Assembly: GCF_002810445.1 (NCBI RefSeq)
Contig: NZ_NEXS01000001.1
Span: 558,001 to 622,000, forward strand
Length of the DNA: 64,000 nucleotides
Direction of reading: 5' to 3'
From: Advenella sp. S44
GTDB taxonomy: Bacteria; Pseudomonadota; Gammaproteobacteria; Burkholderiales; Burkholderiaceae_B
The notes under the pieces were generated by a model. It ran no database searches. It was not told the DNA's origin and worked only from the letters and a program-made list of their open reading frames with translations. The stretch's first letter is position 1, and each line of letters opens with the position of its first letter. Position numbers and translations under genes: made by a program. Positions 4,349 to 24,369 of the stretch are shown one piece after another.

Positions 4349-4358
4349 CAGTATACTG
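4349..4358. promoter_or_regulatory. PicR box upstream of the TRAP dctQM genes
   Basis: A perfect CAGTATACTG palindrome lies 60 bases before the dctQ start, in the 270-base divergent region between soxC and dctQ. On the complementary strand it reads TCAG-TATA-CTGC, fitting the reported PicR pattern TCAG-N4-CTNN (recalled). It is one of four identical decamers placed at pic-region promoters. On the minus strand a CTGACA -35 with an 18-base spacer to TATACT could also point a promoter toward soxC. Confidence 0.75.
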
Positions 4359-4417
4359 ATTAATATTCAGTCATGTCAGGTCGTCCTGTTCAACCATTTC
4401 GTAGCGGTCCAATTTTG

Positions 4418-5029
4418 ATGAATCTCTTATCTAGTCTATCCAGAGCGATTGATGCGCTCGTCTACACCATTGGGCGAGCTGTCATCTGGCTTACCCTGCT
4501 GGTGGTGCTGATTAGCGCGGGCAACGCGGTGATCCGTAAGACCTTCCATGTGAGTTCCAATGCCTGGCTGGAGATCCAGTGGTATCTTTTTGGCGCCATT
4601 TTTCTGCTGGCTGCGGGTTACACGTTTATGAAGAACGAGCATGTTCGTGTCGATATCATTTCTCAGATGATGAGCAAGCGCACGCAGATTGTGATCGAAA
4701 TTCTTGGCGTGCTGTTTTTTATGTTGCCCGCCTGTCTGCTATTGCTGGACCTGTCCATTCCATTTTTCATGCAGTCTTTTTTGACCAGCGAGCAATCGTC
4801 AAATGCCGGTGGGTTGATCCGCTGGCCGGTGAAACTGCTTATTCCCATTGGATTTTTCCTTCTGGTGCTTGCCGGCGTTTCGCACTTGATTAAATGTGCG
4901 GCCTTTCTTGCCGGCAAAGGGCCAGATCCGCTGGCGCCGGTGCAGGGCAAGACCGCCGAGCAACTGCTAGCCGAAGAGATCGCTAATGAGGCCAGGCTCA
5001 AAGAAATCGAACAAAGGATGGACAAGTAG
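4418..5029 (+). CDS. TRAP transporter small permease (DctQ family)
   Basis: The 203-residue membrane protein has four hydrophobic segments (about residues 20-40, 55-75, 90-115 and 135-155) and a charged C-terminal tail. The segment NAWLEIQWYLFGAIFLLAAGYTFMKNEHVRVDI is characteristic of DctQ proteins of the mannitol/chloroaromatic TRAP group. I chose the ATG at 4418 because an upstream in-frame extension to 4373 has no hydrophobic or conserved content. It sits directly before the large permease, and a PicR box lies 60 bases upstream, placing it in the picolinate regulon. The matching binding protein is not adjacent; it is encoded at 14432-15523. Confidence 0.85.
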   Translation: MNLLSSLSRAIDALVYTIGRAVIWLTLLVVLISAGNAVIRKTFHVSSNAWLEIQWYLFGAIFLLAAGYTFMKNEHVRVDIISQMMSKRTQIVIEILGVLFFMLPACLLLLDLSIPFFMQSFLTSEQSSNAGGLIRWPVKLLIPIGFFLLVLAGVSHLIKCAAFLAGKGPDPLAPVQGKTAEQLLAEEIANEARLKEIEQRMDK

Positions 5030-5030
5030 C

Positions 5031-6764
5031 ATGGAATTCTTTATTAACAATATGCCACCGATCATGTTTATGACATTGATCTGTTTCCTGCTGCTGGGAT
5101 TTCCTGTCGCATTTACACTGGCCGCCAATGGCATACTGTATGCGTTGCTTGGCATTGTTTTCGGTGAATTTACCTTTTCCTTTTTGCAGGCACTGCCGGA
5201 TCGGGTATTTGGCATCGTATTGAATGATTCGCTTCTGGCGGTGCCATTTTTCACGCTCATGGGCCTGATTCTGGAGCGCTCCGGCATGGCAGAAGACCTG
5301 CTGGAAACAATTGGCCAGTTGTTTGGTCCAATCCGCGGCGGTCTGGCCATTGCTGTGGTGGTGGTCGGGGCCATGCTGGCCGCCACCACCGGCGTGGTCT
5401 CGGCATCGGTCATCTCCATGGGACTGATATCGCTGCCCATCATGTTGCGTTATGGCTACGATCGCAAGCTGGCGACGGGTGTTATCGCTGCGTCCGGGAC
5501 GCTGTCGCAGATTATTCCACCCTCGCTGGTATTGATTATTCTGGCCGATCAACTCGGCCGCTCCATTGGGGATATGTACCGTGGCGCGATGGTGCCAGGC
5601 TTTATCCTGGCCGGCGCCTATATTGTCTATGTCGTCATCTGTTCGATCATCAAGCCGTCCAGTGCACCCGCGCTTCCCGAAGAAGCCCGTATCTATCGTG
5701 AACCCAATGGAAAAAGTGGCCTTGTTTCGCTGCTGGTGCTGTCGGTGATCGCTGCTGTGGGTGCGTGGTTGCTCGATACCCTGCTTCTGACGGAAAAGAC
5801 GGCAGCCGACGAAGTGATTGTGCTCAATTTGTTACTCTGGGGTGTTATTGCATTCGTCATTGCGGTAACCAATAAGGCGCTTCGACTGCAGATGCTGTCG
5901 CAAATTGCCGAACGGGTGGTATTCGTAATGATTCCGCCCCTGTTATTGATCTTTCTGGTACTGGGCACGATTTTTCTTGGCGTTGCCACGCCAACTGAGG
6001 GTGGCGCAATGGGCGCGGTCGGCGCGATTGTGATGGCGCTGCTGAGGCGTCGCCTGAGCTGGACGTTACTCAAGCAGGCAATGGATACTACGACCAAGCT
6101 TACCAGTTTTGTGGTTTTCATCCTGGTCGGCTCAACGATCTTTACCCTGACTTTTACCGGCTTCGGCGGACAGCACTGGGTTGAGGGTCTGTTTGCGTCC
6201 TTGCCAGGCGGCGAGACCGGGTTTCTGATCGTGGTTAGCGTAGCAACCTTCTTTCTGGCATTTTTCCTGGATTTTTTTGAGCTGGCCTTTATTATTGTGC
6301 CGCTGCTCGGACCCGTTGCTGACAAAATGGGTATTGATCTGATCTGGTTTGGCGTCTTGCTGGCAGTCAATATGCAGACCTCCTTTATGCACCCACCTTT
6401 CGGGTTCGCGCTGTTTTACCTGCGCTCGGTGGCACCCAAAGAAGATTATGTCGATCGTATTACCGGCAAACTGATCAAGCGGGTCACCACGGGCGAAATT
6501 TATCGTGGTTCCATTCCATTCATTGTGATTCAGCTGCTGATGGTTGCCTCGGTCATGATCTGGCCGGGTATGGTGCTGCATTATAAAGGGGCCGGCACGG
6601 GGACTGATCCGGCCACGGTCAGATTTGACATGGGCGCGTCCTACGATTCGGGCGGCTATAGCACCGATCCGTATGGCAGTGGCGCCGCCCCATCAGAGCG
6701 CTCCGCAACGGATCAGTTTAACGACTCGCAAGAGCAGGAAGATTCAGCCCCGCTGTTCAAGTAA
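5031..6764 (+). CDS. TRAP transporter large permease (DctM family)
   Basis: The 577-residue integral membrane protein begins one base after the dctQ stop. It contains repeated TRAP large-subunit motifs: GLILERSGMAEDLLETIG, GAMLAATTGVVSASVISMGLISLP, ASGTLSQIIPPSLVLIILADQLG and GVATPTEGGAMGAVGAI. It is longer than the usual 425-residue DctM because of a central insertion (about residues 215-300) and a hydrophilic C-terminal tail of about 45 residues rich in Ser, Gly and Asp. This is typical of the mannitol/chloroaromatic subclass. It is expected to carry substrate across the inner membrane using the sodium gradient. The PicR box ahead of dctQ suggests picolinate or a related pyridine carboxylate as cargo. 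Confidence 0.88.
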   Translation: MEFFINNMPPIMFMTLICFLLLGFPVAFTLAANGILYALLGIVFGEFTFSFLQALPDRVFGIVLNDSLLAVPFFTLMGLILERSGMAEDLLETIGQLFGPIRGGLAIAVVVVGAMLAATTGVVSASVISMGLISLPIMLRYGYDRKLATGVIAASGTLSQIIPPSLVLIILADQLGRSIGDMYRGAMVPGFILAGAYIVYVVICSIIKPSSAPALPEEARIYREPNGKSGLVSLLVLSVIAAVGAWLLDTLLLTEKTAADEVIVLNLLLWGVIAFVIAVTNKALRLQMLSQIAERVVFVMIPPLLLIFLVLGTIFLGVATPTEGGAMGAVGAIVMALLRRRLSWTLLKQAMDTTTKLTSFVVFILVGSTIFTLTFTGFGGQHWVEGLFASLPGGETGFLIVVSVATFFLAFFLDFFELAFIIVPLLGPVADKMGIDLIWFGVLLAVNMQTSFMHPPFGFALFYLRSVAPKEDYVDRITGKLIKRVTTGEIYRGSIPFIVIQLLMVASVMIWPGMVLHYKGAGTGTDPATVRFDMGASYDSGGYSTDPYGSGAAPSERSATDQFNDSQEQEDSAPLFK

Positions 6765-6804
6765 TTCCCGTTCAGGGTTGGGGCATGCGCAACAGATTTG
6801 AAAG

Positions 6805-6835
6805 TTGTCGCATGAATATTTAATCAGTATACTGT
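6805..6835 (+). promoter_or_regulatory. Predicted picC promoter overlapped by a PicR box
   Basis: A -35 hexamer TTGTCG (6805-6810) is separated by exactly 17 bases from a -10 hexamer TATACT (6828-6833). The -10 lies inside the palindrome CAGTATACTG (6825-6834; TCAG-TATA-CTGT). A repressor bound there would cover the -10 element, matching PicR as a MarR-type repressor. The picC start is 43 bases downstream of the -10, with AAAGGAC as ribosome-binding site. Confidence 0.75.
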
Positions 6836-6876: not shown

Positions 6877-7839
6877 ATGACACTGACGCGCAAGATCGCT
6901 TTCGAGGAGCATTTTAGTGCCGTGGGATTCGATGATTATTCCAAGGCATTTGTAAAACATATCAACACGCAGGCCAGTAGTGAACTGAATGTACGTCTTG
7001 CAGACTTTGACGATACGCGGATTCGGCTCATGGATCAGTACGCGATCGACTATGTGATCCTGTCCCAGACGGGGCCGGGCGTGCAGAATGAACCAGATAC
7101 GGCAACGGCGGTGCATCGCAGCCGCCAGAACAATGACTTTCTTGCTGCACAGATCGATCGCAATCGTGAACGGTTCGGCGGCTTTGCGACGCTGCCCATG
7201 CAGGACCCGGACGCTGCAATCGAAGAGTTGCGTCGGACTGTGAATGACCTGGGCTTCAAGGGCGCGCTGGTCAATGGCCATACGCACGGCGTCTATTATG
7301 ATGATCGAAAGTATGATCCGTTCTGGGCCGAACTGGAAAAGCTGGGTGTTCCGCTTTATCTGCATCCATTTGATGCCTATGATATTCCTCACGCCTATAG
7401 CGGACATCCCGAGCTGGTGGGGGCCACCTGGGGTTGGGGTGTCGAAGCCGGTACCCACGCATTGCGTCTGCTGTTCGGTGGCGTATTTGATCGCTTTCCG
7501 GGAGTGAAAGTCATTCTGGGCCACATGGGAGAGGGATTGCCATTTCAGCGCTGGCGTTTTGACAGTCGCTTTGCCGTCTATCCGCATGGCGTCAGCCTCA
7601 AGCAGCAGCCCTCGCAATACATTGGCAGCAATATCCTGATTACCACCTCCGGGGTTTGTTCCCACGCGGCGTTGCAGGGCGCGATTGCTGAGATGGGACC
7701 ACAGGCGGTGATGTTCTCAGTCGATTATCCCTATGAGTCTATCGAGCTTGCTGCAAATTTCATTGATACCGCACCGCTGGATGAGCAGACCAAGAACATG
7801 GTGTGCTATGGGAACGCAAAAAAATTGTTCAACCTTTGA
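6877..7839 (+). CDS. picC: 3,6-dihydroxypicolinate decarboxylase PicC (amidohydrolase 2 family)
   Basis: The 320-residue cytoplasmic metalloenzyme is related to gamma-resorcylate and aminocarboxymuconate semialdehyde decarboxylases. Visible metal-site residues are the N-terminal FEEHF motif (Glu10/Glu11, His12), His163 in LYLHP, His216 in LGHMGE and Asp283 in SVDYPYE. In picolinate degradation the family member PicC removes the ring carboxyl of 3,6-dihydroxypicolinate to give 2,5-dihydroxypyridine. The assignment rests mainly on context: it heads a run of picC, picE, picD and picF in the order known from Alcaligenes faecalis and has a PicR box in its promoter. Alone, the fold would only indicate an aromatic-acid decarboxylase or hydrolase. 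Confidence 0.85.
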   Translation: MTLTRKIAFEEHFSAVGFDDYSKAFVKHINTQASSELNVRLADFDDTRIRLMDQYAIDYVILSQTGPGVQNEPDTATAVHRSRQNNDFLAAQIDRNRERFGGFATLPMQDPDAAIEELRRTVNDLGFKGALVNGHTHGVYYDDRKYDPFWAELEKLGVPLYLHPFDAYDIPHAYSGHPELVGATWGWGVEAGTHALRLLFGGVFDRFPGVKVILGHMGEGLPFQRWRFDSRFAVYPHGVSLKQQPSQYIGSNILITTSGVCSHAALQGAIAEMGPQAVMFSVDYPYESIELAANFIDTAPLDEQTKNMVCYGNAKKLFNL

Positions 7840-7856
7840 CCTATCCGGAGATACTT

Positions 7857-8699
7857 ATGAGCACGTTTATGTACGGTGCCAACATTCACGCCAATGGGAT
7901 CCGCCAGCATTATTTGCGATTTGGCGGGCAACAGGGCGAGCGCAAGACACGCCCAAGCATTGTGATCATACCCGGCATTACCAGTCCCGCCGTGACCTGG
8001 GCTTTTGTGGGCGAGCGCTTCGGCTTGCACTACGACACCTATATCCTGGATGTGCGGGGCCGGGGATTGAGCGAGGCCGGTGCTACATTGGACTATAGTC
8101 TGGATGCGCAATCGAGCGATGTGATCGAGTTTGCCCGGACTTTGGAGCTGAAAGATTACGTCATTGTGGGCCATTCCATGGGAGCCCGCATCGGCGCCAG
8201 AGCGGCGGCGACCCAGCCCGCTGGATTGAGCCGGTTGGTCATGGTGGATCCGCCGGTATCGGGACCGGGCCGCCGGGCGTATCCGTCCAAATTGCCATGG
8301 TATGTCGATTCCATGGCGCTTGCGCGCAAGGGATGCAGCGCGCAGGACATGAAAGCGTTTTGCCCGACATGGACCGAGGAACAGTTGCAACTGCGCGCTC
8401 AATGGCTTCACACTTGTGATGAGCGTGCCATTGTGGAAAGTTTCGACGGCTTCCATGCCGATGACGTTTTTGCCGATTTCCCGAAGATTCGCGTGCCGGT
8501 GCTGTTGATGACCGCAGAGCGCGGAGATGTAGTGTTGCCTGAGGATGTAAAGGAAATGGAAGGGTTGATCGGCGAACTGGCGCATGTGCGGGTAGATAAT
8601 GCCGGCCATATGATTCCCTGGGATAACGAAGAGGGTTTCTACCAGGCTTTCGGGCCATTTTTAGGGCGGCATCTGACACGCGTAGCGCAGGCTTGCTAG
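7857..8699 (+). CDS. picE: N-formylmaleamate deformylase PicE (NicD-like alpha/beta hydrolase)
   Basis: The 280-residue alpha/beta hydrolase shows nucleophile Ser107 in VGHSMG, Asp131 (VMVDPP) and His251 (NAGHMIP). The spacings, 24 residues Ser to Asp and 144 Ser to His, equal those I recall for NicD of Pseudomonas putida (Ser101, Asp125, His245), including the unusual early position of the acid. It releases formate from N-formylmaleamate to give maleamate. I chose the ATG at 7857 (MSTFMYGANIHANG) because the upstream in-frame extension overlaps picC and lacks conserved sequence. It follows picC by 17 bases and precedes picD. Confidence 0.9.
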   Translation: MSTFMYGANIHANGIRQHYLRFGGQQGERKTRPSIVIIPGITSPAVTWAFVGERFGLHYDTYILDVRGRGLSEAGATLDYSLDAQSSDVIEFARTLELKDYVIVGHSMGARIGARAAATQPAGLSRLVMVDPPVSGPGRRAYPSKLPWYVDSMALARKGCSAQDMKAFCPTWTEEQLQLRAQWLHTCDERAIVESFDGFHADDVFADFPKIRVPVLLMTAERGDVVLPEDVKEMEGLIGELAHVRVDNAGHMIPWDNEEGFYQAFGPFLGRHLTRVAQAC

Positions 8700-8784
8700 C
8701 TTCATGCAGCAGGGGAAGCGAGGGCTGTGATCGTGCTGCTTTCCCAACATTTTTCGATGTGACCATCATTAAAGGAGATTGTCC

Positions 8785-9831
8785 ATGGCCGTTAGCGACT
8801 ATCAACTCATCAGCGCATGGCAGCATGTACTGACCCTGTCCCGACTGGAAAAAGGACAGATTGTTACCATACTGACCAGCGCCAATACACACCCCCAGAC
8901 CTTGTCATGCGCTCTGATCGCTGTGCAATCATTGGGTGCCGTTGTCAACCGGCTGGATCTGCCACCTGTCAATGCCGAGAAGTCCCTGAGTCGCGATCCG
9001 CTGGCCTATTTGGGAACCACAGCGCTGACGGGTAACCCTGCCGCGATCGCCGCGCTCAAGGCGAGCGATCTGGTGCTGGATTTGATGACCTTGCTGTTTT
9101 CGCCGGAACAGATTGATATTCTGGGAAGCGGCACCAAGATACTGTTGGCAGTCGAGCCGCCGGAAGTTCTGGTGCGCTGCCTGCCGACGGCAGAAGATCG
9201 CGAACGTGTGCTGGCGGCTTCTGCGTTAATGGCAAATGCCAGGGAAATGACGGTTGTGTCGGATGCGGGGACCGATCTACGCTGCCCAGTGGGAGAATTT
9301 CCCGCCATCAGTGAATATGGCTTTGTCGATGAGCCCGGCCGCTGGGACCATTGGCCCAGCGGCTTTTCTCTGACCTGGCCCAATGAGGGAGGCGCCAACG
9401 GCACGATCGTCATTGACACAGGAGACATTCTGTTACCGCAAAAATCCTATGTGTCCGCCCCAATTGTGCTTACAGTAGAAAATGGCTATGCCGTAAAAAT
9501 TGAGGGCGGGATTGACGCCGAGCGACTTGCCGAATATATGGAAACGTTCAATGATCCCGAGGGATATGCCATTTCGCATATCGGTTGGGGATTACAGAAA
9601 CGCGCCTACTGGTCGGTGCTTGAGCTGTATGACAAGGAACAGACCATAGGAATGGATGCGCGGGCATTTGCAGGCAATTTTCTGTTTTCGCTGGGCCCTA
9701 ATAATGAAGCGGGCGGTTCGCGCACAACCGCGTGCCACATCGATATTCCCTTGCGCAATTGCACAGTGTGCCTGGACGGTAAAGCAGTCGTGACCAAAGG
9801 CAAATTGCAGGAAAACAAACATGGAAGATAA
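8785..9831 (+). CDS. picD: 2,5-dihydroxypyridine 5,6-dioxygenase PicD (NicX-like)
   Basis: The 348-residue non-haem iron ring-cleavage dioxygenase converts 2,5-dihydroxypyridine and oxygen to N-formylmaleamate. With the ATG at 8785 (ribosome-binding site AAAGGAGA just upstream), the expected iron ligands fall at His265 (AISHIGWG), His318 and Asp320 (ACHIDIPL), the same numbering I recall for NicX (His265, His318, Asp320). The fold is related to leucyl aminopeptidase M29, which automated annotation often reports instead. The gene ends 11 bases inside picF, so the two are translationally coupled. Confidence 0.9.
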   Translation: MAVSDYQLISAWQHVLTLSRLEKGQIVTILTSANTHPQTLSCALIAVQSLGAVVNRLDLPPVNAEKSLSRDPLAYLGTTALTGNPAAIAALKASDLVLDLMTLLFSPEQIDILGSGTKILLAVEPPEVLVRCLPTAEDRERVLAASALMANAREMTVVSDAGTDLRCPVGEFPAISEYGFVDEPGRWDHWPSGFSLTWPNEGGANGTIVIDTGDILLPQKSYVSAPIVLTVENGYAVKIEGGIDAERLAEYMETFNDPEGYAISHIGWGLQKRAYWSVLELYDKEQTIGMDARAFAGNFLFSLGPNNEAGGSRTTACHIDIPLRNCTVCLDGKAVVTKGKLQENKHGR

Positions 9832-10456
9832 CAACGATACGACGATCTACGAGACCCAGGGTTTCGGCGCGGACATTCAATTGAAAGCGCCCTTCGGGCT
9901 GTTGATCGTGGATCTGGTCAATGGCTTTGCCGATCCTGCCGTGTTTGGTGGCGGCAATATCGGGCAAGCTATTGACAAGACGGTGCCATTGCTGGCTGCG
10001 GCACGTCATGCCGGATGGCCAATTGCGCATACGCGCATTGTCTATGCCGAGGATGGTTCCGATCACAATGTATTTAGTGCCAAGATTCCTTCCATGCTGA
10101 CACTGACAGAGCAGGCTCACGCCAGCCAGATTGTTTCCGAGTTGACGCCCCGGGAGGGAGAACTTGTAGTTCGCAAGAATGTGGCATCCGCCTTTTTTGG
10201 TACATCCCTGGCGGCGTGGCTGACACATCGCGGTGTGCATACGTTACTGGTCGCAGGCGCGGTCACCAGCGGATGCATCCGAGCCAGTGTGGTCGATGCC
10301 AGCCAGCTGGGCTTTGTTCCTCTGGTTATCGAGGACTGTGTGGGCGATCGCGCGCAGGGTCCTCACCAGGCCAATCTGTTCGATATGCAGCAAAAGTATG
10401 CGGCGGTCATGAAAAGAGACGAGGCGCTGGCTAAGTTGGGTATTGAAGTGCCTTAA
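9821..10456 (+). CDS. picF: Maleamate amidohydrolase PicF (isochorismatase family, NicF-like)
   Basis: The 211-residue cysteine hydrolase of the isochorismatase-like superfamily shows the catalytic triad as Asp31 (LLIVDLVNGF), Lys119 (VVRKNVASAF) and Cys152 (GAVTSGCIRAS), with the usual cis-peptide region before the Cys. It hydrolyses maleamate to maleate and ammonia, the step that frees the ring nitrogen. It is last in the picC-E-D-F run and overlaps picD by 11 bases. A strong terminator follows about 50 bases after its stop. Confidence 0.9.
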   Translation: MEDNNDTTIYETQGFGADIQLKAPFGLLIVDLVNGFADPAVFGGGNIGQAIDKTVPLLAAARHAGWPIAHTRIVYAEDGSDHNVFSAKIPSMLTLTEQAHASQIVSELTPREGELVVRKNVASAFFGTSLAAWLTHRGVHTLLVAGAVTSGCIRASVVDASQLGFVPLVIEDCVGDRAQGPHQANLFDMQQKYAAVMKRDEALAKLGIEVP

Positions 10457-10562: not shown

Positions 10563-11081
10563 TCAGATCGGGTAGACCAGGCTGTTTGCCAGTATCTCCG
10601 TATCGAAGATGGCATGACGCTCTTTGAGCTTGAGCTGTCCGTCCACACGCACATGAGTATCATGATACGTGCCGGCAAGGTGAACGGTAGACGGGCCCTC
10701 GACCAGCGTCTGCATTAACAGGAAATTGGCTTGGGACTCTATCTCGCCGGCAGCAGTTTCTTCCAGGATACGCAGGTTTGAAACAAGATGCAGGGTAAAG
10801 CGCGGCGCATACATTTGCGTGCGCGAAGTCGCTACGGCACGGTCGTGCATCATGTCGCGGCCTTCTGCGTAGATCAGGCCCACAGGCATGCCCAATTCGG
10901 CGTTCTCGCGCGAGGTGGCGCGATAAAGTCCGTCTTCGGCAAAAAAGTCAGGCCACAGTTCGACCTGGTTCTGATCCAGTACAGCACAATATTCCGCATG
11001 GAAATTTTCTATCTCAGGACGCAGTGCCAATACCCTTTCAATTGAAATATTCTGTGCCCGGTAGGCAAACGTATTTTTCAT
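10563..11081 (-). CDS. picB4: Ring-hydroxylating oxygenase small (beta) subunit, PicB4-like
   Basis: The 172-residue SnoaL/NTF2-fold protein of the aromatic-ring-hydroxylating dioxygenase beta-subunit family shows EIENFHAEYCAVLDQNQVELWPDFFAEDGLYRATSREN, then HDRAVATSRTQMYAPRFTLHLVSNLRI. It is structural and stabilises the alpha-subunit trimer. An ATG at 11081 with AAGGAA upstream is preferred over a TTG two codons earlier. It lies 14 bases after the alpha-subunit gene. With the other picB components it forms the 6-hydroxypicolinate 3-monooxygenase; the B4 label follows the published gene order as I remember it. Confidence 0.85.
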   Translation of the reverse strand: MKNTFAYRAQNISIERVLALRPEIENFHAEYCAVLDQNQVELWPDFFAEDGLYRATSRENAELGMPVGLIYAEGRDMMHDRAVATSRTQMYAPRFTLHLVSNLRILEETAAGEIESQANFLLMQTLVEGPSTVHLAGTYHDTHVRVDGQLKLKERHAIFDTEILANSLVYPI

Positions 11082-11095
11082 TCGCAATTTCCTTC

Positions 11096-12385
11096 TTAGA
11101 TGTCCATGACTTTGCGGTAGTATTCATACATAGAGCGTATGGCAGCTTCGGAGATCAGCGTGTCGGATGTGCCAACCTTATTGGCGTCCAACTTGATGAT
11201 GCTGGTATCTGTGGTTGAACGGCGCACGCCCTCCTGAACAAATTTCATCGCTTCATTGTCTTCCAGTCCGAGAAATCCGGCCGGACCCATAAGATTTCCC
11301 TGGCGCAGCCGATGGCGTACGGTTTCCTCGGAGTCGTCTTCATAGCCGAACATGGTCCATTGCATGATCAGGCTGTTGGGCCCGTTAGGGATAATCTGTC
11401 GTACGCCCAGGGTATTCATTTCGCGCTGTACGATCAGGTTGGGCCAGATCGTCTGCATGGTGACCGACCACGGAGAGTCAAACTCCTTAACATAGTTTAG
11501 GAAGCGTTCGTCTTTAAGCCGCATCGTGTCAACGTAGGAACGCATTTCCTTTTTGTTTTCTTCGCTGACACTGGCATATTTGTCCTCGGACTTGGCCGAG
11601 GCCATGTAGCCATGGCGTCCGTGAACGGTATCGACAAACATTTGTGATTTATTGCCGGCCACCAGCAGTCCAAATACCACCAGGAACGAATGCAGCAGCG
11701 TCGCGTGATAGGGATCCTTCAGGTTTTCGTGATACATCTTCCAGTTGCATGGCAGTTCATTGCGATAGTAGCCCACGATCCGCAAGGGTTTGCCCGGAAA
11801 AATGACATTGAAATCCTCCAGAATCTCCGGCGTCAGGTATTCCTCTATCGGTTCAACCTGGTCGCAGTAGGATGCAAAAATCACGCCATGATGAGTGGTC
11901 ACGTGCAGTTTTTTCAAGCCATGGTCCGCGTTTTTGAAGTCGCGCGGCATGCCCCCTTCCTTGTTTACACCTCGTTTGAACGGAATACCCTGCAAGTCCC
12001 CTTTCAGGCTGTAGGACCACTGATGATAAGGGCACACGAATTCGTTGGTATTGCCCTGGTTTTTTCGACAGAATTCGGCACCGCGGTGGGCGCAGCGATT
12101 TTCAAAGACGTTGATGGAGCCGTCCTCTGCGCGTGATACCACGACTGGCGTTGCGCCAACATAGGAGCGTTTGAAGTCTCCTGATTTGGGAATCTCAGCT
12201 TCCAGGGCAACGAAATTCCACGTCTTGCCATGGAAAATGCGTTCCATTTCGCGATCATAAACGGACTGACTGGTGTAGACCCAATCCGGGATGGTATGTA
12301 GTTTGTCTTCGGGCCAGATGCACTGGTCGGCAGCAGTATTCTTGGTGCCCAGCGTTTGGCCGATGACCGTTTGCGACTGAAACAT
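11096..12385 (-). CDS. picB3: Rieske oxygenase large (alpha) subunit of 6-hydroxypicolinate monooxygenase, PicB3-like
   Basis: The 429-residue catalytic subunit has a Rieske [2Fe-2S] domain with Cys98, His100, Cys118 and His121 (NRCAHRG and CPYHQWSY). The mononuclear iron site shows His227 and His232 in KDPYHATLLHSF, with the bridging Asp224, and probably an Asp near residue 370 (GLEDNEAMKFVQEG). It should insert oxygen at C3 of 6-hydroxypicolinate. The function is taken from its place between beta-subunit, reductase and ferredoxin genes inside the pic cluster; the fold alone would fit benzoate- or anthranilate-type dioxygenases. Confidence 0.87.
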   Translation of the reverse strand: MFQSQTVIGQTLGTKNTAADQCIWPEDKLHTIPDWVYTSQSVYDREMERIFHGKTWNFVALEAEIPKSGDFKRSYVGATPVVVSRAEDGSINVFENRCAHRGAEFCRKNQGNTNEFVCPYHQWSYSLKGDLQGIPFKRGVNKEGGMPRDFKNADHGLKKLHVTTHHGVIFASYCDQVEPIEEYLTPEILEDFNVIFPGKPLRIVGYYRNELPCNWKMYHENLKDPYHATLLHSFLVVFGLLVAGNKSQMFVDTVHGRHGYMASAKSEDKYASVSEENKKEMRSYVDTMRLKDERFLNYVKEFDSPWSVTMQTIWPNLIVQREMNTLGVRQIIPNGPNSLIMQWTMFGYEDDSEETVRHRLRQGNLMGPAGFLGLEDNEAMKFVQEGVRRSTTDTSIIKLDANKVGTSDTLISEAAIRSMYEYYRKVMDI

Positions 12386-12420
12386 AATTTTTCTCCTGAA
12401 ATGATCCGGCGGCTCGTCAC

Positions 12421-13707: not shown

Positions 13708-13771
13708 TATTTACCTCTATGGCAGACTGGATATAACGTATGTCCATCAGAATGGGAGGCCTGAAACAGGA

Positions 13772-14080
13772 TCAAGGAAAGGAGACCAGCACCTGCCCCT
13801 CTTCCTGCTTCACCTCATACACTTTGATGTCCACAGTGGCCGGCGCGCTCATCGCCTTGCCGGTTTTCAAACAAAATTGCGCCTGATGCAGCGGACACTC
13901 AATACAGCCGTCTTCCAGAAAACCTTCCGAAAGTAGCGCATATTGGTGCGTACAAATGTTGTCGCTGACATAGAACTGGTCCTCCAGCTTGTGCAGGGCA
14001 AGTTTGTGGCCTTCTATTTCAAAGCCGAGAGATTCTTCATTGTCCAACTCATTTGCCTTGTCGATTTTTACCCAGGCCAT
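13772..14080 (-). CDS. picB1: Rieske ferredoxin component of the oxygenase, PicB1-like
   Basis: The 102-residue soluble Rieske ferredoxin has ligands Cys43-X-His45 (ICTHQ) and Cys62-X2-His65 (CPLHQ). It carries electrons from the reductase to the oxygenase alpha subunit. It is first of the four minus-strand picB genes, and a PicR box lies 84-93 bases upstream of its start. The run of ferredoxin, reductase, alpha and beta is the reverse-strand equivalent of the B4-B3-B2-B1 order described for Alcaligenes faecalis. Confidence 0.88.
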   Translation of the reverse strand: MAWVKIDKANELDNEESLGFEIEGHKLALHKLEDQFYVSDNICTHQYALLSEGFLEDGCIECPLHQAQFCLKTGKAMSAPATVDIKVYEVKQEEGQVLVSFP

Positions 14081-14162: not shown

Positions 14163-14193
14163 TCAGTATACTGTATTAAATCATACTACAATA
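14163..14193 (-). promoter_or_regulatory. PicR box and likely picB promoter
   Basis: A perfect CAGTATACTG at 14164-14173 (TCAG-TATA-CTGT on the plus strand) contains a TATACT -10 on the minus strand. Possible -35 elements upstream on that strand are TTGTAG (15-base spacer) or TATTGT (17-base spacer). The picB1 start is about 84 bases downstream. The surrounding 350-base divergent region between picB1 and dctP is very AT-rich. Confidence 0.75.
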
Positions 14194-14366: not shown

Positions 14367-14431
14367 TAAATATTGCAGGCGGTTGGTAATTGAATATTCC
14401 ATTGACAGTCATTTCGTTCCAGGGGAAAAAA

Positions 14432-15554: not shown

Positions 15555-17972
15555 ATGAACGACAGCGAAAAGACCTCGGCGACGGTGAAACCACAGGGCG
15601 TAGGAGCGCGACTCCGACGCAAGGAAGACGACCGTCACTTGCAGGGCAAAGGCAACTTTATCGGTAATATGCAAATGCCAGGCTTGCAAGAAGTCGCTTT
15701 TCTGCGTAGCCCTATGGCGCACGCCAGATTGCGGGGTATCACGGTTGACGCCCAGGCGCAGGAAAATGTGATATTGCGAGATGCCATGGATTGCGCTGAC
15801 ATCTTCGCGCCGTCCACACTGCCCGGGTATCAGAATTCCAGCGCGCCGCCTTTGGCCAGCGGCAAGGTGCGCCTGGTAGGTGAGGCCGTTGCCATGGCAT
15901 TCGGGCCTACTCGCGCAGAAGCTGAAGATTTCACGGAAATGGTAGAAGTCGATTACGAAGAACTTCCCGTTTATGCCAATATGCATGAGGCACGTCAGGC
16001 GCAGGACAACTTTGTGCATGACAGCTGGAAGAACAACGTATTTGTACAACTGAGCAGTGACGTGAAGTTTGAACAATATGCGGCCAAGGCGCAGCGTACC
16101 GTCAGTCACCGTGTGAGTTTGTCACGTCAATGCATGCTGCCTATGGAAGGCAAGGCGGTACTGGCGTACTGGGATCATCAGGCCGATCAACTGGTCGTGT
16201 ATTGTGGAAGTCAGATCCCTCACATGCATCGCACGGGCTTTGCCCAATTCCTGAATCTGGATCAGTCACGTATCCGGGTTATTTCTCCCGATGTGGGTGG
16301 CGCTTTTGGCTACAAGTGCGTGCTCCATCCGGAAGAGCTTTGCGTGGCCTGGCTGGCCAAAACCTATAAAAAACCCTTCCGGTACATGGAAGACCGGCGC
16401 GAGCATCTGATCGTGGGGGCTAATACCCGTGAGCACGAGTATACGCTCACAGGTCATATCGATAACACAGGCCGTCTTCTGGCGCTGGATGCCGAAATTA
16501 CGGTCGACGCAGGTGCGTACTCGGTTTGGCCCTTTACTGTAGGACTGGAAGTGGGCCAGGCCCTGGGCAATTTGCCTGGGCCTTATCGCATACAGGGCTA
16601 TCGTTGCACCACAACCGGTGTGGCTACCAACAAGCCCGGCTTTATGCCTTATCGTGGGGTTGCTCGTACTGGTGTGTGCCTGGCGATCGAACAACTCATG
16701 GACGCCATTGCGCGGGAAGTGGGGCGCGAGCCGTGGGAGGTACGCCTGGATAATCTGGTCCGAGCAGCGGATATGCCCTATGTGAACGTCGCTAATAAGC
16801 ACTACGATGGTGGCGATTATCCGGCAGGTTTGCGCCGTGCATTAGAGATGATCAACGTTCAGGATGTGCGAGCGCGGCAGCAGTCCCGCAAGCCAGGCGA
16901 GCCTTTGCTGGGAATCGGGGTGGCGACCTATACCGAACAGTCGGCCCACGGCACTTCTGTGTTTGCAGCGTGGGGAACCGCAGTGATTCCCGGCTTTGAT
17001 CAGGCCATGGCGCGCATCTCTGCCGATGGCAGCCTGGAGCTGAGCGTCGGCGTGCATTCGCACGGGCAGGGTATGGAAACCAGTTTTGCCCAGATAGCAA
17101 ATGAAATTCTGGGAATTGATGTGTCCAGAGTCAACCTGACGCATGGCGACACCGGCCGTACCCCGTTTTCCACCGGGACGTATGCATCGCGCTCTGCGGT
17201 GATGTCTGGCGGTGCCGTGTCCAAGGCCTGTAAGGGCCTGTTACCGCGTCTGTTGCAGATCGGCAGCCATATGCTGGGCGTAACCATGGACGAGGTTGAA
17301 CTGGTCGATGGACAGGTACGCCATGGCCAGCGGCATGTCACGGTCGCTGACATTGCGGATGCGTGGTATATCAATCCCCAGAAGCTACCCGCCGATGTGG
17401 ACCCAAGCGGCCTGGAAATCACTGTTGGCTATAAACCCAAGGTCGATACCGGCAGTTTTACGTACGCATCCTGTGCGGCTGTTATCGCGCTGGACCCGCA
17501 GACCGGCATCGTCAGAATACTGGATTATGCGGTAGTGGAAGATTGCGGCACGATTCTGAATCCACTGATTGTTGAAGGTCAGACGATGGGCGGCACGGCG
17601 CAGGGAATTGGCACAGCATTGTACGAAGAAATGCCTTATGACGACACGGCCCAGCCACTGGCCTCGACGCTGGCCGATTATCTAATGCCTGGCGCGCCGG
17701 AAGTGCCTAATATTCGCATTGAACACACGCAGACACCATCGCCCAATACCGAGTTCGGGGCCAAGGGCATGGGAGAGGGCGGCGCGATCGCACCGCCCGC
17801 CGTTTTGATGTCCGCCATCAATGACGCTTTAAAAGGACAGAACGTGCTGGTCACACGCACACCCATGACGCCCCGGCGCATTCTGCAAGCAATGGCGCAG
17901 GCCGATCTTGCGAATGCCGACCAGGATAGCGGACAGGGGTCAGTCACGGCAAATATCCAGGAGGTCGCATGA
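15555..17972 (+). CDS. picA1: Picolinate dehydrogenase large subunit PicA1 (xanthine dehydrogenase family, molybdopterin)
   Basis: The 805-residue molybdenum hydroxylase large subunit has an N-terminal a/b-hammerhead domain (VGARLRRKEDDRHLQGKGNF), the cofactor-binding motif VGGAFGYKCVLHPEE near residues 250-264, and the catalytic base Glu741 in GAKGMGEGGAIAPPA. The family (CoxL/XdhB-like) hydroxylates heteroaromatic rings with water as oxygen source. Here it should convert picolinate to 6-hydroxypicolinate. Its stop overlaps the FAD-subunit start by 4 bases. The substrate is inferred from the complete downstream pathway around it. Confidence 0.88.
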   Translation: MNDSEKTSATVKPQGVGARLRRKEDDRHLQGKGNFIGNMQMPGLQEVAFLRSPMAHARLRGITVDAQAQENVILRDAMDCADIFAPSTLPGYQNSSAPPLASGKVRLVGEAVAMAFGPTRAEAEDFTEMVEVDYEELPVYANMHEARQAQDNFVHDSWKNNVFVQLSSDVKFEQYAAKAQRTVSHRVSLSRQCMLPMEGKAVLAYWDHQADQLVVYCGSQIPHMHRTGFAQFLNLDQSRIRVISPDVGGAFGYKCVLHPEELCVAWLAKTYKKPFRYMEDRREHLIVGANTREHEYTLTGHIDNTGRLLALDAEITVDAGAYSVWPFTVGLEVGQALGNLPGPYRIQGYRCTTTGVATNKPGFMPYRGVARTGVCLAIEQLMDAIAREVGREPWEVRLDNLVRAADMPYVNVANKHYDGGDYPAGLRRALEMINVQDVRARQQSRKPGEPLLGIGVATYTEQSAHGTSVFAAWGTAVIPGFDQAMARISADGSLELSVGVHSHGQGMETSFAQIANEILGIDVSRVNLTHGDTGRTPFSTGTYASRSAVMSGGAVSKACKGLLPRLLQIGSHMLGVTMDEVELVDGQVRHGQRHVTVADIADAWYINPQKLPADVDPSGLEITVGYKPKVDTGSFTYASCAAVIALDPQTGIVRILDYAVVEDCGTILNPLIVEGQTMGGTAQGIGTALYEEMPYDDTAQPLASTLADYLMPGAPEVPNIRIEHTQTPSPNTEFGAKGMGEGGAIAPPAVLMSAINDALKGQNVLVTRTPMTPRRILQAMAQADLANADQDSGQGSVTANIQEVA

Positions 17973-18817
17973 AGGCCGCTAAATTTGATTACGCCCGTGT
18001 CAATAGCATAGACGAGGCGCTTACGCTGCTTGATGTAAATGATATCAATGTCAAGATACTGGCGGGCAGCCAGTCGCTGGGGCCCATGCTTAACCTGCGC
18101 CTGGCGCGTCCCCAGAAATTGATCGATATCTCTGCTGCATCCGCGTTGCGCACCGTGGAGAAACAAAAAAACAGTATTCGAATTGGTGCTGCGGTGACGC
18201 ATGCGGAGATCGAAGACGGGACGCACGACGCTCTGCGCGGTCATATGATGCACTACGTCGCGGGACGGATCGCCTATCGTGCGGTGCGCAATCGCGGCAC
18301 CATAGGGGGCAGCCTGGCTCACGCGGACCCGGCTGCAGACTGGGTATTGGTGTGCAACGTACTGGATGCACAACTGGAAATTCGTGCAGGCAAGGATGCA
18401 CGCATGGTCCCTGCCACCCGGTATATGCAGGCGGCCTATACCACGGACCTGCAGCCAGAGGAAATGATTGTGGCGGTGCACGTGCCAATGATGTCGTCCG
18501 AAGCGCGCTGGGGGTATTACAAATTTGTGCGTAAGGTAGGCGAATTTGCCGAGGCCAGTTGCGCCTGTTATTTCGACCGTGCAGCCTCGGTGGCGCGCAT
18601 TGTGATCGGCGCGCTCGACGGTTCGCCACAATTGCTGCCGGATCTTTCTGTCAGCGCGGCCCAATACGGTATGGCTGCAGTAACGCCTCAGGCGATTGAC
18701 CAAGCTATTGCGCCCCATATCCAAAACAAAGACGCTGCCGAGCGGATATGGTTTCGCACCGTTGTCGAGCGCAGCTTGCGCCAGGCATTGGGAGAACAAG
18801 GAATGACAAATGAGTGA
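17969..18817 (+). CDS. picA2: Picolinate dehydrogenase FAD-binding medium subunit PicA2
   Basis: The 282-residue CoxM-type flavoprotein has the FAD pyrophosphate-binding motif ILAGSQSLGPMLNLRLA (about residues 31-47) and the second FAD motif RNRGTIGGSLAHADPAADW (about residues 108-126), followed by the CO dehydrogenase flavoprotein C-terminal domain. It accepts electrons from the iron-sulfur subunit and passes them on. It overlaps picA1 by 4 bases and picA3 by 8 bases, indicating coupled translation of the three subunits. Confidence 0.9.
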   Translation: MKAAKFDYARVNSIDEALTLLDVNDINVKILAGSQSLGPMLNLRLARPQKLIDISAASALRTVEKQKNSIRIGAAVTHAEIEDGTHDALRGHMMHYVAGRIAYRAVRNRGTIGGSLAHADPAADWVLVCNVLDAQLEIRAGKDARMVPATRYMQAAYTTDLQPEEMIVAVHVPMMSSEARWGYYKFVRKVGEFAEASCACYFDRAASVARIVIGALDGSPQLLPDLSVSAAQYGMAAVTPQAIDQAIAPHIQNKDAAERIWFRTVVERSLRQALGEQGMTNE

Positions 18818-20009
18818 ACTCGCACTAAAAGTCAATGGCAAGCAAGTAAGCCAAGATGTGACGCCCCGCACCCATCTTGGGGATTTCCTAAGGGATAACC
18901 TGCGTCACACCGGCACCAATTTGAGTTGTGAGCACGGAGTCTGTGGCTCCTGTACTGTCCTGGTCGATGACAAGCCGGTCCGGTCTTGTATTACATTTGC
19001 GGTTGCCTGTGAAGGAAAAAAGGTAACGACCATAGAAGGGTATGACGATGATGCGATCATGCAAATGCTGCGCGTTGCCTTCAATGAATATCATGCCCTG
19101 CAATGCGGATTTTGTACGCCAGGCATGCTGGCGACCAGTCGCGACATTGTGCTGCGGCTGCCTGATGCAGATCAGGAGCGGGTAAGGATTGAGCTGAGCG
19201 GTAATATTTGCCGTTGTACGGGCTACCAGGGCATTACGGCGGCGGTGCTGTCTGTGCTGACCAAATTGAAGGAGCAGCCGGACGAGCAGGTGGAGCAGTT
19301 GCGTGCCCGATTGCGGCAGAATGCACCGCGAGAATTTCCTGTCTTCCAGGCTTTTGAATCGTTTGCCGCAACAAAGCCAGTGAACGATGCGGCGCCCGTG
19401 GTCGCCAGCGAAGCCCCTGCAAGCGACAAGGTCGGTGGCGCCAAGGAGGGCAAGGGCACGACCGTGGAAGGCGGCTTTGACCTGAGATTGCCGGCCGAAC
19501 AAGTATGGACGTTTATGACCGATCTGAAAGCGGTCGCCAGTTGCCTGCCAGGTGCGGTGATTCAGGAACAGGATGGCGACCGGGTCAAAGGTCAGATCGC
19601 GGTCAAATTCGGTCCCATGGCCGCTGCTTTCAAGGGCAACGCCACGCTGGAGCGTCGGGACAACGATCATGTTGCAACGCTGCGCGGCGAGGGCGTGGAT
19701 TCCCTGAGCAATTCGCGGGCCAAGGGTGATGTGACTTATGCCGTTGTGCAAAAAGATGACCATCTGTGCCGGGTCAACGTATCTCTTGCTTATTCTTTGC
19801 AGGGACCACTGGCGCAGTTTTCGCGTTCCGGCCTGGTTCAGGATTTCGTCAAGCGCATGATTGCCGATTTTGGCAAGAACGTGGAGTTCCGGTTACTGAA
19901 CCCGGATGCAGATGCCAGTGATATTCCACAATCACACATCAGCCCGTTCAAGCTAATGATGAGTGTAGTGTGGGGGCGCATCAAGGGAGTATTTGGCGCC
20001 GGACGGTAG
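18810..20009 (+). CDS. picA3: Picolinate dehydrogenase [2Fe-2S] subunit PicA3 fused to a CoxG-type domain
   Basis: The protein has 399 residues where the usual small subunit has about 150-180. Residues 1-165 are a CoxS/XdhC-type iron-sulfur protein: plant-type [2Fe-2S] Cys40, Cys45, Cys48 and Cys60, then the second cluster Cys99, Cys102, Cys134 and Cys136. A linker of about 45 residues rich in Ala, Pro, Lys and Glu follows. Residues 215-375 are an SRPBCC/CoxG domain (VEGGFDLRLPAEQVWTFM, ASCLPGA, VKFGPMAAAFKG). CoxG proteins act in assembly or membrane attachment of molybdenum hydroxylases, so the fusion may bring the enzyme to the membrane or its maturation factors. The linker keeps one open frame. 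Confidence 0.88.
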   Translation: MSELALKVNGKQVSQDVTPRTHLGDFLRDNLRHTGTNLSCEHGVCGSCTVLVDDKPVRSCITFAVACEGKKVTTIEGYDDDAIMQMLRVAFNEYHALQCGFCTPGMLATSRDIVLRLPDADQERVRIELSGNICRCTGYQGITAAVLSVLTKLKEQPDEQVEQLRARLRQNAPREFPVFQAFESFAATKPVNDAAPVVASEAPASDKVGGAKEGKGTTVEGGFDLRLPAEQVWTFMTDLKAVASCLPGAVIQEQDGDRVKGQIAVKFGPMAAAFKGNATLERRDNDHVATLRGEGVDSLSNSRAKGDVTYAVVQKDDHLCRVNVSLAYSLQGPLAQFSRSGLVQDFVKRMIADFGKNVEFRLLNPDADASDIPQSHISPFKLMMSVVWGRIKGVFGAGR

Positions 20010-20092: not shown

Positions 20093-21112
20093 ATGAAAGC
20101 GTTGTTGAGAAAAGCCCGACAGTGCGTCGCGGCAATGGTGGTATGTGGTTGGTTACCCGTTGCCGCAGCAGCCTCGACGGATTTGGTGGTGCGGCTGGAC
20201 TGGACGCCCTGGGCGGTACAGGCGCCGTTTCACCTGGCCATGCAAAAAGGCTGGTTCAAGGCGGCCGGGCTCAATGTCCGGATGGAGGACGGCAATGGCT
20301 CAGTCAGTACCGTGCAGATGCTAGGGGCTGGCGATCATTTCGATGTGGGTCATGCGTCACTGGCAGCGATGATGATCGGTCGCGATAAAGGCATGCCCTT
20401 GAAAGCCATCGCGCCGTTCATGACCAGTACCGACATAGGCGCGCTGGTTCCGTCTGACTCAGATATCGAGGGTCCGGCCCAGCTCAAAGGCAAAAAAGTG
20501 CTGTACACGGCCGGATCGCTCGAGGCTCCGTTTATTGATTTTTTCCTCAAGGCAGGCAAGCTGAGTCGTTCCGACGTGGATTTGCTCAGTGTTGATGCCT
20601 CGGCCAAGGCGGCCACCTATGCCGTCAAACGTGCCGACGCCGTGATTTCCACCATTCCCTTTATTCTGCCCAGCGTCACCCGCCAGCGCCAGTCGCGGCC
20701 CTTGCCGTTTTCCGATTACGGCCTGGACATGGTCAGTTTTGGCCTGTTCACCAATGAGAAAAAGCTGGAAGAAAAGAAAGAGGCCATTGGCAAGTTCGCC
20801 AGTATTGTCGCGTACGGCTGGCAATATATTATGGACGGGCACGAGGCCGAAGCGGTTGACGCAATTGTTGCCCAGCGTCCGCAGGCACGGCTGGACAAGG
20901 GCATTCTTGCCGAACAGCTCAATGCACTCAAGCCCTACTTCCCGCAAGACAGGAAGCAGCAGATTGGCATGGTCAACCCCGATGATTTTAAAAAGTCAGT
21001 CAGTACACTGCATAAAGTAGGGTCGATACGGTACAAGCTTGATCCTGACGAATATTATGTGAAGGATCTGATTCAACCCATCGCAGACGCTGCACCGGAG
21101 ATAGTCAAATGA
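20093..21112 (+). CDS. ABC transporter substrate-binding protein (NMT1/ThiY-like)
   Basis: The 339-residue periplasmic protein has a signal peptide ending VAAAAS near residue 27. The mature N-terminus, LVVRLDWTPWAVQAPFHLAMQKGWFKAAGLNV, is the NMT1/THI5-like pattern. It starts an ABC operon with overlapping ATPase and permease genes directly after picA3, so it may import picolinate or another pyridine or pyrimidine compound. Its ligand cannot be read from sequence. Because the ATPase next to it looks inactive, the importer may be non-functional or may borrow another ATPase. Confidence 0.8.
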   Translation: MKALLRKARQCVAAMVVCGWLPVAAAASTDLVVRLDWTPWAVQAPFHLAMQKGWFKAAGLNVRMEDGNGSVSTVQMLGAGDHFDVGHASLAAMMIGRDKGMPLKAIAPFMTSTDIGALVPSDSDIEGPAQLKGKKVLYTAGSLEAPFIDFFLKAGKLSRSDVDLLSVDASAKAATYAVKRADAVISTIPFILPSVTRQRQSRPLPFSDYGLDMVSFGLFTNEKKLEEKKEAIGKFASIVAYGWQYIMDGHEAEAVDAIVAQRPQARLDKGILAEQLNALKPYFPQDRKQQIGMVNPDDFKKSVSTLHKVGSIRYKLDPDEYYVKDLIQPIADAAPEIVK

Positions 21113-22818: not shown

Positions 22819-23340
22819 CTACATATCCTTTAGCGCCGCCCGGCCATACTGGTTATTTTCTTCCACCAGCTTGCTTAGCAGCCGTACGAAAATTTCCCGC
22901 TCTTCATTGTTCAGCGGTTCCAGTAGCCGTTCCTGTGAGCGAATCATTCCTTTGCGCAATTGCTTCATTATACGAATGCCTTCCTCTGTAATGAAAGACT
23001 GACGCGAACGCCGGTCGACGGGATTGACCCTGCGGCTTACCAGGCCCTTATCAGCCAGACGCTTGATGACATCAGCAGAGGTAGTGCGATCCAATCCTAC
23101 TTTTAGTCCGATGGATGACTGGTCCAGGTATTGCTCGTTCAGCAATACCGATAGCACGCCATGTTGCACTGGGGTGATGTTTTCATTCTTGCATTCTTCG
23201 AAGAACATGGAGTAATGAATCTGATTGAGTCGCCGCACCAGGAATCCCGGTCGCGACCACAGGCCCTGGTCATGAAATTTGGTCTTGATTTCGTCTGAAT
23301 GGTCGGCCGTGGGCAGATCGTCGTTGTCTCTCTTTCTCAT
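22819..23340 (-). CDS. picR: MarR-family repressor PicR
   Basis: The 173-residue winged-helix regulator has its DNA-binding region around residues 60-115 (SSIGLKVGLDRTTSADVIKRLADKGLVSRRVNPVDRRSRQSFITEEG), a textbook MarR HTH plus wing. The ATG at 23340 is chosen over a TTG at 23436 because the MarR fold starts soon after it. A perfect PicR box lies about 137 bases upstream, with a half-matching site (23351-23364) next to the start, so autoregulation is likely. In Alcaligenes faecalis PicR represses the pic operons and is released by 6-hydroxypicolinate (recalled). That the four CAGTATACTG sites here belong to this protein is an inference. Confidence 0.82.
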   Translation of the reverse strand: MRKRDNDDLPTADHSDEIKTKFHDQGLWSRPGFLVRRLNQIHYSMFFEECKNENITPVQHGVLSVLLNEQYLDQSSIGLKVGLDRTTSADVIKRLADKGLVSRRVNPVDRRSRQSFITEEGIRIMKQLRKGMIRSQERLLEPLNNEEREIFVRLLSKLVEENNQYGRAALKDM

Positions 23341-23350
23341 TATGCAGTGA

Positions 23351-23364
23351 ACCTTATACTGAAG
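23351..23364. promoter_or_regulatory. Possible degenerate PicR site at the picR start
   Basis: The minus strand reads CTTCAGTATAAGGT about 11 bases before the picR ATG. The left half (TCAG-TATA) is identical to the perfect boxes, but the right half is not conserved. It may be a weaker autoregulatory site or chance. Confidence 0.3.
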
Positions 23365-23463
23365 TGGCTTGAAGCGCAGTTCAGGATTGCCCGATGGGCT
23401 GCCCTGGCCGCTAAAGTTACCGGTGCTTTTTCGCAATTCTATCGGGAAAATACGGTCTCTGCA

Positions 23464-24369
23464 CTAGCAATAACTACAGTATACTGTCATTTTTTCTGAA
23501 AGGAAATCAAATACCTGTCGTGCGCTGGGTGACAGGTCTCGAATACGCCGGGCGCCAATCAGTATTTTGCGTTCCGCCCACTCTTCATCAAGCCTGACTC
23601 TTACTGTATTGGGCACCCGGTATAGGTCCACACAGCCTTCGGGCAGTATGCCAATACCCATATTGGCGTTGATAAGCAGGCACATGGCGTCATAGCCCGA
23701 TGTCTCAATATCAATCCTGACATTAGTCGACTCTGCTCGCGCTGCATTAATGAGTTGGTAATTGAGCTGGGTGCCTGCTGTAAGCGTAATGTGGCTGTAG
23801 CCAAGCGTATCCCTGAACGACACCCGGTCGTGTTTGGCCAGAGGGTGACCGGTCGGTACCAGAACGATCAGTGTATCCTTGCGAAAATGCGCAACCTCGA
23901 TATCGTCCTGATAGGGAATTTGAGTGAAGATGCCAATGTCCAGTTTGCCAGCGGCCAGCGCCCTCGTAATGGCAAGGCTGTTTTTCTCTTCCAGATGCAA
24001 TTGGATATTGGGATACTTGCCGGTAAAGTCGGCCAGTAATGGGGCCAGAAATTGCGTTATGGCGGTGGGATTGGCCGCCAGCGTGACGCTGCCGCGCTGA
24101 CCTTTGCCAAAGTCGCTCAGTTGGTGTTCCACAGCCTGCACGCTATTGAGAATCGCGCGCCCCCGGTACAGCAGTTCCAGGCCCGCGGGTGTTGGTGTCA
24201 CACCGCGGTTACTGCGGTTCAGCAGCACCAAACCAAGCTTGTCTTCCAGTTCGGAAAGGCGGCGGCTGACTGCGGCCGCCGCGATATTTTCCAGCTCTGC
24301 TGCGCGACTGATCGTGCCTTCATCTACAACCCGTATAAATAATTTTAATGTGAGCAGATCAATTTTCAC
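23464..24369 (-). CDS. LysR-family transcriptional regulator
   Basis: The 301-residue protein has the N-terminal LysR HTH (LKLFIRVVDEGTISRAAELENIAAAAVSRRLSELEDKLG, about residues 8-46) and a periplasmic-binding-protein-like effector domain from about residue 90. It lies between picG (27 bases upstream) and picR on the same strand, so it is probably co-transcribed with picG. It resembles LysR activators of organic-acid catabolism. It may control maleate use through the inverted repeats in front of picG. It is not part of the pic cluster as I remember it from Alcaligenes faecalis. Confidence 0.8.
   Translation of the reverse strand: MKIDLLTLKLFIRVVDEGTISRAAELENIAAAAVSRRLSELEDKLGLVLLNRSNRGVTPTPAGLELLYRGRAILNSVQAVEHQLSDFGKGQRGSVTLAANPTAITQFLAPLLADFTGKYPNIQLHLEEKNSLAITRALAAGKLDIGIFTQIPYQDDIEVAHFRKDTLIVLVPTGHPLAKHDRVSFRDTLGYSHITLTAGTQLNYQLINAARAESTNVRIDIETSGYDAMCLLINANMGIGILPEGCVDLYRVPNTVRVRLDEEWAERKILIGARRIRDLSPSARQVFDFLSEKMTVYCSYC
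23477..23486. promoter_or_regulatory. PicR box upstream of picR, within the end of the LysR gene
   Basis: This is the fourth perfect CAGTATACTG decamer. It overlaps the last codons of the upstream LysR gene and lies 137 bases before the picR start. Flanking bases make it ACAG-TATA-CTGT. The position fits autoregulation or blocking of read-through from the picG-lysR genes. Confidence 0.65.

Follow-up and report, generated by a model that had tools for sequence, protein, structure and literature searches.

A palindromic decamer as putative operator of the MarR-type regulator PicR in the pic cluster of Advenella sp. S44

The pic locus

The stretch considered here (the window) is 64,000 nucleotides of Advenella sp. 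S44 (NCBI RefSeq assembly GCF_002810445.1, contig NZ_NEXS01000001.1, positions 558,001 to 622,000 of the forward strand), and it carries a cluster of pic genes, for the catabolism of picolinate, together with four exact copies of the 10-letter palindrome CAGTATACTG. To judge from sequence comparison, these decamers are very probably operators of PicR, a MarR-type regulator encoded in the cluster and their putative binding protein. A PicR regulon marked by this palindrome had already been proposed from the letters of the window (the original prediction), and it is strongly supported because the exact decamer is exclusive to the locus in the whole genome, is present or absent with the pic genes in the genus, and recurs as the same element at 67 of 80 related loci. 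Three main corrections are to that first reading: to the spacer, to the site embedded in lysR and to the extent of overlap with -10 elements.

On the plus strand the order is dctQM of a TRAP transporter, picC, picE, picD and picF; on the minus strand there follows picB (oxygenase, reductase and ferredoxin), then on the plus strand dctP, picA and an ABC transporter, and finally on the minus strand picR, lysR and picG (Table 1). Genes were named by domain and order and by comparison with pic clusters already published; for dctM, the reductase, the medium subunit of picA and the ABC genes the names come from place and look. For picD the Pfam search gave no match. The ATG of dctQM at 4373 varies within the genus, and from start codons compared by eye 4418 is the likelier start. 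The picR product belongs to the MarR family, scoring 39.7 bits against the winged-helix domain PF01047 (cut-off 24.6), and its closest solved structure by sequence is that of PcaV (4fht, E 1.1e-21), a MarR-family repressor of aromatic catabolism with a ligand and operator other than those of PicR. The gene shares its stretch with picC, picB and picA, and its product is 59% identical to that of the gene adjoining picC in Alcaligenes sp. SORT26 (locus L006), orthology being by best match.

Table 1. Putative operators, weaker candidate sites and genes of the pic locus (window coordinates)
Feature	Position	Strand	Remarks
Operator 1, GCAG-TATA-CTGA	4349..4358		exact decamer upstream of dctQM
Operator 2, TCAG-TATA-CTGT	6825..6834		exact decamer over -10 of picC promoter
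Operator 3, TCAG-TATA-CTGT	14164..14173		exact decamer, 84 bp upstream of picB ferredoxin gene, in divergent picB-dctP region
Operator 4, TCAG-CATA-CTTG	14354..14363	+	degenerate copy; covers -10 of dctP promoter
Operator 5, ACAG-TATA-CTGT	23477..23486		exact decamer, 137 bp upstream of picR ATG, in last lysR codons
Candidate intragenic site, TCAG-TACA-CTGC	21001..21010	+	in ABC binding-protein gene; matrix score 19.3
Possible extra half-site, CTTCAGTATAAGG	23352..23364	-	just upstream of picR ATG; weak
dctQM, TRAP transporter membrane subunits	4373..6764	+	Pfam DctQ; dctM by place and look
picC, picE, picD, picF	6877..10456	+	Pfam Amidohydro_2 (picC), Isochorismatase (picF); alpha/beta hydrolase matches (picE)
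picB, Rieske oxygenase small and large subunits, reductase, ferredoxin	10563..14080	-	subunit and ferredoxin matches; reductase by place and look
dctP, TRAP transporter binding protein	14390..15523	+	Pfam DctP, 1.1e-54
picA large, medium and small subunits (molybdenum hydroxylase)	15555..20009	+	large and small matches; medium by place between them
picR, MarR-family repressor, 173 aa from ATG at 23340	22819..23340	-	Pfam MarR, 4.7e-10
lysR, LysR-type regulator gene	23464..24369	-	Pfam; 3' end holds operator 5
picG-like gene, Asp/Glu racemase superfamily, probably maleate isomerase	24397..25146	-	Pfam Amdase and Asp_Glu_race

The decamer in the genome and the genus

A count over the full window agrees with what had been noticed by eye, namely identical palindromes at 4349, 6825, 14164 and 23477 and none elsewhere in the window, and not one of 100 dinucleotide shuffles of the window had four (mean 0.00). 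With up to one mismatch three extra copies appear, at 17513, 21001 and 21219, each within an open reading frame (ORF); shuffles on these terms have a mean of 0.84 copies and at most 5. Is the exact decamer common in the genome outside pic promoters, which would have told against the original prediction? In 4,305,312 bases on 17 contigs it is found at the same four places only, versus one occurrence for the reversed-pattern control, an outcome in favour of the prediction. All four lie inside 20 kb, in or beside the pic cluster, and the chance that three further random sites would share the first one's 25 kb is, as a simple product, about 2e-7. A regulon extending beyond the pic genes was rejected, exact decamers being confined to those four and one-mismatch copies being at the level of the control.

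The regulator, PicC and the decamer were looked for in ten genomes of the genus. The four with both a picC and a picR match (G000, G003, G004 and G005) each have four decamers, alike spaced, in the pic stretch, and in all four, the window included, the decamers of operators 1, 2, 3 and 5 and the site at 14354 are unchanged amid differing flanks. There is one stray decamer each in G003 and G005, and the six genomes without that gene pair have 0, 1, 0, 1, 1 and 1, with reversed-control totals of 29 over the ten. Five of the six stray decamers in the ten genomes lie in stop-free frames of at least 850 bases, and the other in one of 267. In G004 (C1:125121-125638) picR is split between two frames with the four decamers intact, which could be natural loss of the repressor or an assembly error.

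The operator among relatives

The comparison beyond the genus used 80 loci, the best 80 of 586 relatives of the picB large subunit, each extending at most 10 kb to either side and with gene starts extrapolated from tblastn matches; L005, from the window's genus, is included in the 80-locus counts and was left out of the matrix and the -35 test described below. The 75,509 bases upstream of pic genes hold 230 matches to CAGN4CTG (mean 20.6 in 30 dinucleotide shuffles), and 202 of the 230 have the form CAG-YRYR-CTG, for which the 30 shuffles give a mean of 1.5 and a largest value of 4. The density of this canonical form is 2.68 per kb upstream versus 0.062 per kb in the rest of those loci, and 67 of the 80 loci have at least one. 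How strict, then, is the spacer? It had been thought stricter than the reported pattern, with TATA invariably at the centre, and this does not survive the comparison: with either strand read, the spacers of the 230 upstream sites are CATA/TATG in 86, TACA/TGTA in 66, TATA in 25 and CGTA in 12. Because relatives favour YRYR spacers, with CATA and TACA above TATA, the TATA of Advenella is a local choice, and the reported free spacer, N4, looks too loose as a description.

A matrix made from 200 sites (153 distinct sequences) in a scan of 79 loci, all from other genera, adds to the decamer a T before, an A after and an outer AT-rich shell. When it is run over the window, operators rank first, second, third, fifth and sixth, operator 1 having the top score of 25.8, and the intragenic site at 21001 ranks fourth. 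All four genomes of the genus with pic genes have that site; of its eight third codon positions the most distant genome has seven identical, versus 49% gene-wide, and the two closer ones have six, versus 82-85%, so that there is no clear excess of conservation and the site stays a weak candidate only. It lies within a set of ABC transporter genes following picA (20093-22595; binding protein, ATPase and permease, by look). The possible half-site CTTCAGTATAAGG is likewise in 4/4 pic-carrying genomes, with a T to C spacer change in G005 (by eye), and is outside the 30 best matrix scores.

Sites among relatives also occur in pairs. Neighbour distances across the 80 loci number 135, of which 43 are 20-23 bp and none is from 24 to 72 bp, and pairs at 20-23 bp are found in Achromobacter, Bordetella, Cupriavidus and two other lineages; as close species repeat pairs, few independent events are involved. 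The two-helical-turn distance suggests that two dimers bind the same face. In the window no matrix score at 18-24 bp from an operator comes up to the window's 99.9th percentile (-1.0); the highest, 20 bp below 23477, is -4.6. A broader proposal, which we regard as speculative and somewhat less probable than its negation, is that PicR across Burkholderiales may read a two-part code, a fixed CAG...CTG contact and a YRYR centre tuned gene by gene, the centre doubling as a -10 where TATACT or CATACT is needed; sites would be doubled 20-23 bp apart in several genera for joint binding of two dimers to one DNA face, and in Advenella the arrangement would have been reduced to sites without partners, of which one ends up in the final codons of the adjacent gene.

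Individual operators and their promoters

The copies had been said to fit the pattern TCAG-N4-CTNN. Taken on either strand it fits those at 4349 (on the minus strand), 6825 and 14164, and also the site at 14354; 23477 breaks it, reading ACAG-TATA-CTGT on both strands. The operator 3 decamer is also at the matching place in 3/3 Alcaligenes loci, 40 bp upstream of the picB ferredoxin gene. The site at 14354, CAGCATACTT, is indeed two mismatches from the decamer, as its earlier description as a degenerate copy implied, but its counterpart in 3/3 Alcaligenes loci is TCAG-CACA-CTTA with a TTG hexamer 17 bases upstream (by eye), and on this comparison it is a conserved putative second operator, not a decayed decamer. 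In L006 (Alcaligenes) TCAGN4CT is found at one place between picR and picC and at two between picB and dctP, in L008 it is at two places between picB and dctP, and in three relatives, L037, L039 and L040, exact decamers lie 32-59 bp upstream of picR. A loop joining 14164 to 14354 was considered and rejected because the spacing phase differs between the window, at 190 bp (~18 turns), and three Alcaligenes loci, at 144 bp (~13.7 turns).

Counted by eye, the picC promoter has TTGTCG at 6805-6810, 17 bases and TATACT at 6828-6833, and the dctP promoter TTGATC at 14334-14339, 17 bases and CATACT at 14357-14362; both arrangements hold, with small -35 changes (by eye), in the other three pic-carrying genomes of the genus. 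The two promoters are thus as had been claimed, though the one at dctP is covered by the degenerate copy and not by a perfect decamer, and within the window only these two have a -10 with a 17-base spacer under an operator. As a general rule, overlap with the -10 was rejected: among relatives it does not hold at picC or picB, a TTG at 17 bases upstream being enriched for dctP sites (14/37) and not for those of picC (1/86) or picB (0/94). At picB the site seems to lie over the start, with a -10-like TATGAT (TATAAT in Alcaligenes) immediately upstream of it (by eye).

Running into the dctP -35 is a stretch, TATCAGTATTTACCCTGCTTGATC (14316-14339), that is conserved in the genus except for its last base in G005, and partly in Alcaligenes; it could hold a site for another regulator.

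The copy at the end of lysR

Each perfect copy had been placed at a pic-region promoter. All are at the pic cluster, but the one at 23477 is inside the 3' end of the lysR ORF and not intergenic. How did an operator come to lie at the very end of a neighbouring coding sequence? Within the genus, G007 and G008 keep lysR, 92 and 96% identical, without a picC match and without a picR orthologue. Their lysR ends follow the window as far as the SEK/SEN codons and part from it a few bases short of the decamer, which was not found after lysR in either of these two pic-less relatives. Because lysR homology stops just before the decamer, operator 5 probably belongs by origin to the picR side of the junction, and in strains carrying pic genes the end of lysR would then run into it.

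Near its end (23464-23500) the window lysR is one base shorter than that of G003, G004 and G005, so that the C-terminal tail continues through the operator in a different frame.

Which protein binds, and what weighs against PicR?

Several observations count against the decamers being PicR operators, or against part of them. Copies with up to one mismatch number 98 per strand genome-wide versus 99 for the control; the variants whose scanning had been suggested are therefore background, and the exact decamer alone stands out. A 12-letter form, TCAGYRYRCTGA, is unspecific, with 7 copies in its own genome versus 6 for the control and presence in 144 of 151 genomes of the family. No canonical site is found in 13 of the 80 loci, 12 of which have a picR homologue in the locus; among the 13, L076 spans just 3.8 kb, and in L066 a matching site, 107 bp upstream of the match to the picB large subunit, fell outside the upstream definition used. 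In L007 (Alcaligenes) there is a third match to TCAGN4CT between picB and dctP. The copy at 23477 lacks the T/A flanks and scores 12.7 and that at 14354 scores 12.9, both below the top of the reversed window, 13.7, and at 23477 no -35 was seen by eye at a suitable distance.

Could the copy at 23477 on its own be a chance match in lysR coding sequence, the others being PicR operators? Its coding position, missing flanks and score below the top control speak for this; yet it is one of just four exact decamers in the genome, it is unchanged in all pic-carrying genomes of the genus, and it is missing at the lysR end of the two pic-less relatives where homology ends a few bases before it, and we consider chance unlikely. 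Another candidate is the LysR-type regulator itself, as its gene adjoins picR and one decamer overlaps its 3' end. An operator of LysR would be expected to accompany lysR, but G007 and G008, with lysR and no picC or picR orthologue, have a single stray decamer each, on another contig or more than 280 kb from lysR, and none adjacent to it. A lysR match (35% identity, 60% coverage) is found in none of the 80 pic loci, while picR of at least 45% is found in 55, the loci reaching at most 10 kb from picB so that a lysR farther off would be missed. Binding by LysR instead of PicR thus seems very improbable.

Very improbable too is that the decamers are mere -10 elements, palindromic by chance and with no regulator. 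TATACT does resemble a -10, and the picC and dctP (CATACT) sites have a -35 at 17 bases; however, a -10 leaves the conservation of the full CAG...CTG palindrome unexplained, the -35 at 17 bases is enriched among relatives for dctP only, and sites are also paired 20-23 bp apart. The PicR reading draws on a further comparison. In the 57 loci with a picR match of at least 42%, recognition-helix types were assigned by eye as AEV in 6, ADV/MDV in 50 and AQV in one, the last, which has sites, being excluded from the test; canonical sites are lacking in 5/6 AEV versus 7/50 ADV/MDV loci (Fisher p 0.0011, lineages not independent), a suggestive link between helix type and presence of sites.

Within genus g2, G103, G122 and G140 have two picR homologues each, 62-63% identical to the window PicR and 24-28 kb apart.

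Relation to known systems

In the putative scheme, without inducer a PicR dimer would sit on each palindrome. At the picC and dctP promoters it would block the -10, at the picB promoter the start region, and at dctQM the leader; from its position within the end of lysR it would repress picR itself. Uptake and hydroxylation of picolinate would then give 6-hydroxypicolinate, release PicR and turn on catabolism and uptake genes together. That compound is reportedly the inducer in Alcaligenes faecalis JQ135, where PicR work by Xu et al. (2022, Applied and Environmental Microbiology, AEM) is reported to describe three footprinted sites with the pattern TCAG-N4-CTNN and 6-hydroxypicolinate as ligand. 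One site is said to be at picC and two in the intergenic region between picB and a transporter gene, a layout matched in the window by 6825 (picC), 14164 and 14354, and with which L006 also agrees. The two systems share a MarR-type regulator in the pic cluster, the TCAG left half, and operators at picC and, twice, between divergent picB and transporter genes. Unlike JQ135, the window has picR apart from picC, beside lysR and picG, so that the picC site is not shared with picR; it has an operator upstream of dctQM; its picR-side site is ACAG...CTGT; and TATA is the spacer in all four exact copies.

The same pathway enzymes, with picR separated from picC, are found in Bordetella bronchiseptica RB50, in which a paper on its pic cluster characterises PicC (PMC10142695); the passages of that paper on PicC give no operators (PMC10142695).

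A full-text literature search on PicR and its motif gave, among the papers listed, no further one on this regulator; a paper on Pigmentiphaga concerns other regulators, and a search for Advenella with picolin- returned none joining both. The regulon described here is well supported; its repressor is a known one, the genus is another, and the operator is more sharply defined. The PicR regulon is extended to a genus for which the search found no picolinate paper, and a loose pattern, reportedly from three footprinted sites, gives way to a consensus from the 200 sites of the matrix. This consensus would aid prediction of picR regulons in genomes of unknown diet. It predicts that the four spacer bases are not free, that sites are paired at two turns in several genera, and that recognition helix and site change together.

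The 12-letter TCAGYRYRCTGA was rejected as a genome-wide marker, being unspecific in its own genome and family. Its copies number 67, 95 and 32 in G102, G121 and G139, three of the five genomes searched of genus g43, versus 0 to 25 elsewhere among those searched, and may possibly represent a repeat family. Bordering the pic cluster, at 2215-4147, is a molybdopterin oxidoreductase of the sulfite-oxidase kind, with a small cytochrome-like protein (by look) encoded downstream.

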